Shown here: piece after piece, positions 50,031 through 54,093 of the stretch
Layout of the letters: each line of letters opens with the position of its first letter
Numbering within the stretch: position 1 is the first letter of the stretch
Assembly: GCF_003426945.1 (NCBI RefSeq)
Contig: NZ_QURO01000004.1
Location: 1,364,001-1,428,000 of the forward strand
Source of the DNA: Thermus sediminis
Lineage (GTDB): Bacteria; Deinococcota; Deinococci; Deinococcales; Thermaceae
Length of the DNA: 64,000 nt
Direction of reading: 5' to 3'
Made by a program: the position numbers and the translations under genes
Notes under the pieces: generated by a model
Seen by the model: the letters and a program-made list of their open reading frames with translations, nothing else
Database searches by the model: none
Told to the model about the DNA's origin: nothing

Positions 50031-50873
50031 ATGTTGGCCATCCTTTACGACCGCATCCGCCCCGACGAAAAGATGCTCTTTGAACGGGCCGAGGCCCTGG
50101 GCATCCCCCTTAGGAAGGTCTACGCCCCAGGGCTGCCCATGGTCTTAGGGGAGAGGCCCGAGGACCTTGACGGGGTGACTGTGGCCCTGGAGCGGTGCGT
50201 GAGCCAAAGCCGCGGCCTGGCCGTGGCCCGCTACCTCACCGCCTTGGGCATCCCCGTGGTGAACCGGCCCGAGGTCATGGAGACCTGCGGGGACAAATGG
50301 GCCACCAGTGTAGCCCTGGAACGGGCGGGCCTGCCCCAGCCCAAGACGGCCCTCCTCACCGAGGCCGAGGAGGCCCTGAAGCTCATGGAGGCCTGGGGCT
50401 ACCCCGTGGTCCTGAAGCCGGTGATCGGGAGCTGGGGGCGCCTCCTCGCCAAGATCACCGACCGGGAGGCGGCGGAGGCCATCCTGGAGCACAAGGAGGT
50501 CCTGGGGGGGTTCCAGCACCAGCTCCTTTACGTCCAGGAGTACGTGCGGAAGCCTGGCCGGGACATCCGGGTCTTCGTGGTGGGGGATAGGGCCATCGCC
50601 GCCATCTACCGGAGGAGCCAGCACTGGATCACCAACACCGCCCGGGGCGGGCAGGCGGAAAACTGCCCCCTCACCCCCGAGATCGCCGAGCTCTCGGTGC
50701 GGGCCGCAGAGGCGGTGGGGGGTGGGGTGGTGGCCATAGACCTCTTTGAGTCGGAAAGGGGCCTCCTGGTGAACGAGGTGAACCACACCATGGAGTTCAA
50801 GAACTCCGTGCACACCACGGGGGTGGACATCCCGGGAGAAATTCTGAAGTACGCGTGGAGTTTGGCCTCATGA
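50031..50873 (+). CDS. lysX: LysW-alpha-aminoadipate ligase
   Basis: 280-residue ATP-grasp enzyme joining the AAA amino group to Glu54 of LysW. Motifs: the P-loop region [36 protein letters not shown], the specificity segment [12 protein letters not shown] and metal-binding [14 protein letters not shown]. It is near-identical in pattern to T. thermophilus LysX. Its stop TGA overlaps the ATG of the nucleotidyltransferase gene (ATGA). Confidence 0.97.
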
Positions 50874-51161
50874 CCTTGCGGGAAGCGGTGGAGCGGTTGG
50901 TGGCGGCCTTGGCGCCCGAGGAGGTCTGGCTCTTCGGCTCTTGGGCCCGGGGGGAGGCCGGGCCGGACTCGGACGTGGACCTCCTGGTGGTGGTGCCCTA
51001 CGAAGGGGATCCCAAGGAGCTTACCCTCCGGGGGTACAGGGTCCTGAGGGGGCGGGGCTTTCCCCTAGACCTCTTGGTCTACCCCCGTGCCCTCGTGGAG
51101 CAGAGGCTCGAGGAGGGGAGCCTTCTTCTTCGGGAGATTTTCCGGGAAGGGCGGTGCCTCT

Positions 51162-51190
<29 letters not shown>
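50870..51190 (+). CDS. MNT-type nucleotidyltransferase (antitoxin class)
   Basis: 106-residue minimal nucleotidyltransferase with [20 protein letters not shown], the GSx10DxD core. In MNT-HEPN modules such proteins neutralise a HEPN RNase, some by adding AMP. It starts on the lysX stop (ATGA) and runs 29 bp into the HEPN gene, so it is fully embedded in the lysine operon. The antitoxin role here is inferred from the family and gene order. Confidence 0.85.
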
Positions 51191-52560
<1,370 letters not shown>

Positions 52561-52569
52561 CATATACGT

Positions 52570-52892
52570 GTGCGCCGGGCCGCTCTTTACCCCCCGAAGG
52601 AGGCGAACCCGGGGCTCACCCGTGGCCCGGAAGAAGGGGCGCCCCAAGGCCGAGCTGGTGCGGGAGGCCCTCAGGAAGAGGCCCAGGGCCAGGTTCCCGC
52701 CTGGGTGGGCCTCGGGGCTAAGTACCCCACCGCGGCGAAAGCCGCGGTGGGGGCCCCCCAAAAGCCTTCCCCAAGCCCCGGCTCGGGCCCCCCATGTTGC
52801 GAACCAAAGTGCGGGCACTTAGCCAGGATCCCAGCTATATAGACTGGGACGAGGAGGCTCTGGCGGAGCTTCTGGCCCGGGAGGGGGCTTGA
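52570..52892 (+). pseudogene. VapB-like ribbon-helix-helix antitoxin, frameshifted and split by repeat copy C
   Basis: Pieces of an RHH antitoxin: a GTG start at 52570 with MRRAALYPPKEANPGLTR, then in another frame VARKKGRPKAELVREALRK (about 52622-52678), then the repeat element (52716-52824), and finally DPSYIDWDEEALAELLAREGA ending at 52892, whose TGA overlaps the toxin start. The last piece looks like a toxin-binding tail. The frame between the pieces is broken. It may be inactive, leaving the toxin without its full antitoxin. Confidence 0.7.
52716..52824 (+). repeat. GAAA-hairpin repeat element, copy C, with terminal inverted repeats
   Basis: 109 bp bounded by GGCTAAGTACCC and GGGCACTTAGCC, which match as inverted repeats at 11 of 12 positions. 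Inside the left end is the 12-bp stem with GAAA loop (52725-52752). The body has CCATGTTGCGAACC, shared with copy B. It looks like a small non-autonomous mobile element (MITE-like) inserted into a vapB-type gene. Confidence 0.82.
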
Positions 52893-53287
52893 GCCTGCTT
52901 CTGGACACCAGCGGGGTCCTGGTCCTTCTGGACCGGGCCCACCCCCTTCACGAGGCGGCCAAGGGCGCCTTGGAGGGGCGGCTTTTGGTTCCCGGCACCA
53001 TCCTGCCCGAGGTGGACCATCTGGCCCGGCATCGGCTGGGGGAAAAGGTGGTCAGGGGCTTTCTGGAGGGCCTGGCCCAGGGGGAAGGCCTGTACCTTCC
53101 CTTTCTAGCGGAGGACCTCCCCCGGGCCCTCGAGGTCATGGACGCCTGCCCGGGGGTGGGCTTTGGGGAGGCCAGCATCGTGGCCCTGGCGGAGAAGCAC
53201 AGGATAGGGAAGGTTCTAACCCCGAACGGGAGGGACTTCAGCCGTTTTAGGCCCAGGGGACTGGGCTACTTGGAGTTGTTGCCATGA
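52889..53287 (+). CDS. PIN-domain toxin, VapC type
   Basis: 132 residues. PIN domain acidic residues: LLLDTSGVLVLLDR (Asp), LPEVDHLARHRLG (Glu), VGFGEASIVALAEKH and LTPNGRDFSRFRP (Asp). VapC proteins are magnesium-dependent RNases that cut tRNA or rRNA. Start TTG at 52889 overlaps the antitoxin remnant's TGA; the stop overlaps the lysZ ATG. The reading frame is intact, which is odd next to a broken antitoxin. Confidence 0.86.
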   Translation: MSLLLDTSGVLVLLDRAHPLHEAAKGALEGRLLVPGTILPEVDHLARHRLGEKVVRGFLEGLAQGEGLYLPFLAEDLPRALEVMDACPGVGFGEASIVALAEKHRIGKVLTPNGRDFSRFRPRGLGYLELLP

Positions 53288-54093
53288 TTGTGGTCAAGGT
53301 AGGTGGCGCGGAGGGCATCAACTACGAGGCCGTGGCCAGGGACGCGGCCTCCTTGTGGAAGGAGGGGGAAAGGCTCCTTCTGGTGCACGGGGGGAGCGCG
53401 GAGACCAACCGGGTGGCCGAGGCCCTGGGCCACCCCCCCCGGTTCCTCACCCACCCCGGGGGCCAGGTGAGCCGCCTCACGGACCGCAGGACCCTGGAGA
53501 TCTTCACCATGGTCTACGCCGGCCTGGTGAACAAGCGCCTGGTGGAGCTTCTCCAGAAGGAAGGGGTAAACGCCCTGGGGCTTTCCGGCCTAGACGGAAG
53601 GCTCCTCCTGGGCCGCCGCAAGGCCGCGGTGAAGTACGTGGAGGAGGGCAAGGTCAAGATCCACCGCGGGGACTACACGGGCACCGTGGAGGAGGTGAAC
53701 CGGGCCCTTTTGGACCTCCTCCTGGCCCATGGCTACCTCCCCGTCCTCACCCCCCCCGCCTTAAGCTACGAGGGGGAGGCCATCAACACCGATGGGGACC
53801 AGGTGGCGGCCCTCCTCGCCACGGTCTACGGGGCGGAGGCCCTGGTCTACCTCTCCAACGTCCCCGGCCTCCTCGCCCGCTACCCCGACGAGGCCTCCTT
53901 GGTGCGGGAGATCCCCGTGGAAAGGGTGGAGGACCCCGAGTACCTGGCCCTGGCCCAGGGGCGGATGAAGCGGAAGGTCATGGGGGCGGTGGAGGCGGTG
54001 AGGGGCGGGGTGAAGCGGGTGGTCTTCGCCGATGGGCGGGTGGGGGGTCCCATCAGGCGGGCCCTTGCCGGGGAGGGCACCGTGGTACGCTAG
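53284..54093 (+). CDS. lysZ: LysW-aminoadipate kinase
   Basis: 269-residue amino-acid-kinase family member, ArgB-like. It phosphorylates the side-chain carboxyl of LysW-bound aminoadipate. Motifs: [60 protein letters not shown] and [17 protein letters not shown] overlaps the PIN gene stop (ATGA). It is the last lys gene in this string; the aminotransferase and hydrolase (LysJ, LysK) are not in the window. Confidence 0.96.

Follow-up and report, generated by a model that had tools for sequence, protein, structure and literature searches.

The lysY–lysZ junction

The window, by which we mean the whole 64-kb stretch of DNA that was analysed, covers positions 1364001-1428000 of contig C4 of this Thermus genome (G000). 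A broken antitoxin gene and an open VapC-type frame were found side by side within its lysine-biosynthesis operon, between lysY and lysZ. The features of the junction, in window coordinates and all on the forward strand, are as follows:

51523..52560, +, lysY/argC-type reductase gene, adjoining the antitoxin remnant on its upstream side
52557..52568, +, CTAGCATATACG motif, from sequence comparison of junctions
52570..52718, +, 5′ remnant of vapB (RHH antitoxin), from alignment to the intact homologue
52719..52821, +, MITE, TA-AGTACCCC...GGGCACT-TA, from its copies, target duplication and ends common to an IS630-type IS
52725..52752, +, strong hairpin within the MITE (12-bp perfect stem, 4-nt loop)
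52794..52892, +, 32-codon ORF running from a MITE ATG through the antitoxin tail (MLRTKVRAL + SQDPSYIDWDEEALAELLAREGA)
52821..52892, +, 3′ remnant of vapB, the toxin-binding tail, 23 codons in frame to TGA
52889..53287, +, VapC-type PIN toxin gene (VapC26-like), 132 codons, TTG start
53284..54093, +, lysZ, whose start overlaps the toxin stop (ATGA)

The frames of lysY, lysZ and vapC beside the antitoxin remnant are all open. The lysY stop codon (TAG) lies inside the CTAGCATATACG motif, which is identical 5′ of the intact antitoxin in two other Thermus genomes (G008 and G009), differs by one base in a third (G025), and is likely to have been the promoter/operator of the former vapBC. No plasmid record spanned 80% of the region, and among the matches listed those from Thermus covered the element only and those from Streptomyces the end of argC; an RNA family search of the region returned only a chance match below threshold. 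The same operon holds a second toxin-antitoxin-like module, a nucleotidyltransferase/HEPN pair at 50855-51533 between lysX and lysY (PF01909, E=2.6e-12; HEPN, E=1.6e-28), in which the HEPN gene overlaps the lysY start by 11 nt.

Comparison with other Thermus genomes

We compared the junction across 27 Thermus genomes, all of which keep the order lysY–lysZ; in 22 of them just 11-34 bp separate the two genes. Two genomes, G008 and G009 (the latter matching T. caliditerrae YIM 77925, L077), carry at this position an intact RHH antitoxin gene (77 aa) followed by a TTG-started PIN gene whose product is 63% identical to the G000 toxin. The intact G008 antitoxin scores against RHH_1 at E=2.7e-9 and has the RHH domain plus tail of a VapB. 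Because intact RHH antitoxin and VapC genes occupy the same junction in these genomes, the DNA at 52570-52892 can be identified as a former antitoxin gene, as the earlier note had proposed in calling it a vapB-like RHH gene.

The G025 junction (L070) has decayed in the opposite direction to that of G000, with vapB kept and about 300 bp of vapC deleted; as a result the antitoxin frame continues through the final ~40 codons of vapC before lysZ, as a single antitoxin-toxin fusion frame. At the G001 junction (L048) there is an unrelated insertion of ~1.3 kb that resembles a transposon-associated gene, and no TA module. On a tree of lysY+lysZ the module-bearing genomes do not form one clade: G005, the sister of G000, lacks the module, as does G022, which is nested with G009. 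The distribution of vapBC among Thermus therefore likely reflects transfer or repeated loss. None of the named genome records, when searched with the toxin, gave a relative.

The antitoxin remnant

Alignment to the intact G008 homologue resolved the damage into a 2-bp deletion near 52622/52623, a 13-bp deletion near 52693/52694 and a net insertion of 101 bp. Since the two deletions sum to 15, the original frame was lost only between them, in the core of the RHH domain, and was then shifted again by the MITE; the frameshift described previously corresponds to these two deletions. No frame at the G000 junction joins an intact RHH domain to the C-terminal toxin-binding tail, and only the tail is in frame with the old end. 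The antitoxin gene is consequently a pseudogene, and the locus a vapBC remnant rather than a type II TA operon with both genes intact. The tail nevertheless reads in frame from 52821 to the TGA at 52892, which overlaps the toxin TTG by four bases (TTGA) as in the intact homologues, confirming the prior observation that it still ends on the toxin start, and it retains the sequence SxDPxYIDxDEE.

Differences between the remnant and G008 number 23/13/19 by old codon position, without the third-position excess seen in lysZ (31/20/73). At least three indels separate the antitoxin sequences (2 bp, 13 bp and a 3-bp difference in the tail) and none the longer toxin genes, a contrast that is suggestive and rests on few events.

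An IS630-type MITE in the antitoxin gene

The limits of the inserted element are set by its target duplication, with TAs at 52719-52720 and 52820-52821: it measures 103 bp including both TAs and 99 bp between them, for a net insertion of 101 bp. An element with terminal inverted repeats does cut the antitoxin gene, as had been noted, and the 109 bp given for it correspond to the stretch of BLAST similarity, which takes in a few bases of flanking sequence. The insertion point and the TA duplication were located, as the note had advised, by aligning the element-free locus from other Thermus strains: merging the two TAs yields WVGLGASQDPSYID, which matches the intact WVGVGESRDPGYID codon for codon, and keeping one TA yields WVGLGASQDPSYIDWD, which aligns without gaps to WVGVGESRDPGYIDRD.

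The repeat cannot be put down to chance: thirteen distinct near-complete copies were examined in G000, where partial ones also occur. A TA stands at the left end of 12 of the 13, and at the right the copies finish in CTTA, or in a single case CCTA, a TA target duplication of the IS630 type with which the empty-site comparison agrees. A 1061-bp IS630-type IS, whose DDE_3 transposase is divided between two frames, occurs in other species (G002, G025 and G026), and G006 has a related one. Its terminal inverted repeats, TAAGTGCCC and GGCACTTA, are common to the MITE, and the right end of the MITE also shares an IS segment in which the transposase probably starts (CCATGTTG as read on this strand). 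Because of these shared ends and the shared right-end segment we classify the element, judged by its sequence, as belonging to a Thermus-wide IS630-type MITE family, present in 22 of the 27 genomes. A search of G000 for an IS with the ends of the MITE found none, its only DDE_3 match (L105) lacking them. In the papers searched on Thermus MITEs we found no description of this element and no published name for the family.

A role for the element as a source of promoter or terminator was considered and rejected, since a scan of the region gave no promoter-like match and a lone terminator-like match, at chance level, that lies inside the toxin gene. Some copies of the family (L021, L023 and L024) contain a second palindromic repeat (CCCCATGCTGGC...GCCAGCATGGGG) in their middle, and the same repeat occurs near other copies.

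The toxin and its active site

The toxin gene product falls in the PIN family to which VapC belongs (PF01850, E=3.7e-9, above the cut-off), and its top sequence match is VapC26 of M. tuberculosis (5x3t, E=6.8e-9). A PIN fold is predicted for the protein: the AlphaFold2 model has a pLDDT of 91.3 and TM scores of 0.91 to 5x3t, the top fold match, and 0.81 to VapC20. The toxin had been reported as intact, and its frame is indeed open over 132 codons and aligns to the intact homologue without gaps, but of the four catalytic aspartates two have changed, as has a conserved histidine adjacent to them. D6 and E41 are kept, and D94E, D113N and H116D make up the full set of G000-only changes in conserved columns of VapC, leaving the protein short of the four canonical acids (D, E, D, D) while placing an acid at 116 that fits an alternative motif. 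The third and fourth catalytic aspartates (94 and 113) are invariant in 19 non-redundant homologues and in G008; E94 and N113 occur only in the G000 toxin. The structure prediction proposed earlier as a check of the catalytic residues gave a confident PIN model, and the homologue comparison a non-standard active site.

We had concluded that the toxin was catalytically dead, and withdrew this because VapC1 of H. influenzae, which naturally has Asn at the fourth position and an acid three residues later (N117/E120), works (PMC4229260). The altered site may leave the toxin either attenuated or active, weak or rewired.

It is conceivable, though we consider it unlikely, that the G000 toxin still acts as an RNase through a switched set of active-site acids (D6, E41, E94 and D116) and is retained for some cellular function although it lacks a full antitoxin. 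It continues to have four acidic side chains at its disposal, D94E keeping the charge and D113N with H116D moving the fourth acid by three residues, the layout that works in VapC1; the predicted fold is confident and the gene shows no overall rate acceleration. Against this, the aspartates at 94 and 113 are conserved in all 19 of the compared subfamily and in G008; the third acid is essential in VapC1, where D99G and D99N are inactive and D99N, which matches the D94 position, abolishes toxicity (a D-to-E variant was not in that test; PMC4229260); and a free active VapC would be expected to be harmful.

Persistence of the toxin frame

An open toxin frame is weak evidence of selection in this GC-rich DNA, because 17-21% of random 132-codon stretches in the window are open. 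Among simulated neutral copies that accumulated substitutions only, 55% still had an open frame after 40 changes and about 37% after 66, and openness was accordingly rejected as proof of selection. Codon-position differences were likewise dropped as a sign of selection on the toxin, the counts of 46/29/58 being not clearly different from those of the antitoxin remnant. The 396 bp aligned to G008 contain no indel and give pairwise dN 0.32 and dS 0.94 (lysZ, 0.09 and 0.46), and by relative-rate counts against G008 of 11:14, 16:11 and 12:12 the toxin is not faster-evolving. With no rate acceleration, no indel and this dN and dS, the toxin has therefore mostly evolved as a protein.

Toxin-gene 3′ ends also survive before lys genes elsewhere in the genus, that of vapC before lysZ in G025 and, apparently as the sole remnants of the same HEPN gene, its last 47 and 31 codons before lysY in G014 and G026, respectively (the HEPN–lysY adjacency in these two genomes being derived from lysZ coordinates). 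Such survivals would fit translational coupling. Because the toxin 3′ end overlaps lysZ and probably couples translation into it, frame-breaking mutations there would cost lysine synthesis. The frame probably persists through a combination of an altered toxin, a recent loss of the antitoxin, the scarcity of stops in GC-rich DNA and the overlap with lysZ.

The antitoxin tail and possible other sources of antitoxin

A different way to reconcile an open toxin frame with a broken antitoxin, to which we assign a low probability, is that the toxin is neutralised by nothing more than the tail peptide, produced from a 32-residue ORF that begins at the MITE ATG. The ATG at 52794 is in frame with the tail because of a 1-nt deletion in this MITE copy: one A is absent from it alone (GCGAACC, against GCGAAACC elsewhere) among the 12 motif-bearing G000 entries checked. 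The tail thus brought into frame overlaps the toxin start, and work on VapBC places toxin binding in the C-terminal part of the antitoxin (PMC10215180; PMC6265470). What makes such a chimeric MITE-tail peptide improbable is that we saw no ribosome-binding site ahead of 52794 and that the region gave no promoter-like match. Moreover, chance alone could leave a frame of just 32 codons open, and VapB tails normally act from RHH dimers, so that a free 23-residue tail would probably be a weak binder. A stronger form of the idea, in which the MITE insertion made a shorter antitoxin, the one-base loss yielding a 32-residue peptide without the DNA-binding domain while the toxin active site shifted in parallel, is in our judgement slightly less credible again.

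The earlier note had also raised an antitoxin acting in trans. Six RHH_1 genes are present in G000, and the closest relative of the lost antitoxin is the orphaned VapB at C4:364195, which is intact and stands beside an N-terminally truncated toxin. Its similarity extends only over about 55-60 N-terminal residues, which serve DNA binding and dimerisation, and its tail (EDEELSGRTSEAWLERAWSER) is unlike DPSYIDWDEEALAELLAREGA; with a different toxin-binding tail in the best candidate, the suggestion is not well supported and we regard it as very improbable. The locus to which this gene belongs (C4:364041-364680; L164 2542-3181) is another decayed vapBC, with an intact RHH antitoxin and a toxin without its N-terminal part, and a diverged copy of the same MITE lies just upstream of it.

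That the antitoxin is really intact and only appears broken through assembly or read error is the least probable reading of all. Apparent duplicated sequence near both ends of C4 does suggest an untrimmed assembly, but read errors do not account for a loss of 13 bp or for a gain of 101 bp that shows a target duplication and the ends typical of its family, and the neighbouring lysY, lysZ and vapC frames are open. The duplicated sequence includes identical copies of the element near the two contig ends (5212/2017413; 14197/2026061), suggesting an untrimmed circular overlap.

A vapBC module probably in decay

The explanation we favour, and consider probable, is that a VapC26-like vapBC module that had been inserted at the lysY–lysZ junction is undergoing decay in the G000 lineage. 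The antitoxin gene, intact in the syntenic homologues, carries two frame-breaking deletions and, at a TA, an IS630-type MITE that adds 101 bp, and the open toxin frame has three active-site substitutions at positions that are invariant or nearly so in its subfamily. On this model, loss of the antitoxin would have been tolerable because the toxin was presumably weakened or poorly expressed, and the toxin frame would have been retained through the recency of the loss, the rarity of stops in GC-rich DNA and the probable translational coupling of its 3′ end to lysZ. Two observations sit less easily with decay: the toxin appears to have evolved mostly as a protein, and N113 with D116 corresponds to a working alternative VapC motif (PMC4229260).

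The locus offers a well-resolved snapshot of the death of a TA module inside an operon. One Thermus junction displays four states, namely absence, an intact module, a deleted toxin with the antitoxin kept, and a destroyed antitoxin with the toxin frame kept, which allows one to test whether disarming of the toxin has to precede loss of the antitoxin, and whether toxin frames are preserved by being coupled to a biosynthetic gene.

Comparison with known systems

Decay of a TA module via deletion and MITE insertion is already known as a kind of event, and this is an unusually well resolved instance of it. The nearest points of reference are the intact vapBC modules of G008 and G009, which share with G000 the junction, the TTGA overlap of antitoxin and toxin and a toxin abutting lysZ, but have an intact antitoxin, no MITE and a canonical active site. 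M. tuberculosis VapBC26 (PDB 5x3t) similarly pairs a VapB antitoxin with a PIN toxin and is the top match in sequence and fold, whereas in G000 the antitoxin is broken and the toxin carries D94E, D113N and H116D. H. influenzae VapC1 resembles the G000 toxin in having Asn for the fourth Asp and an acid at +3 (N113/D116 here); it belongs to another VapC subfamily, and its third acid is Asp where that of G000 is Glu. The inserted element, for its part, is comparable to the 89-bp MITE related to IS630 that PMC3852290 lists for M. mazei, both being short and non-coding with terminal inverted repeats and ends related to an IS630-type IS, but represents a Thermus family.
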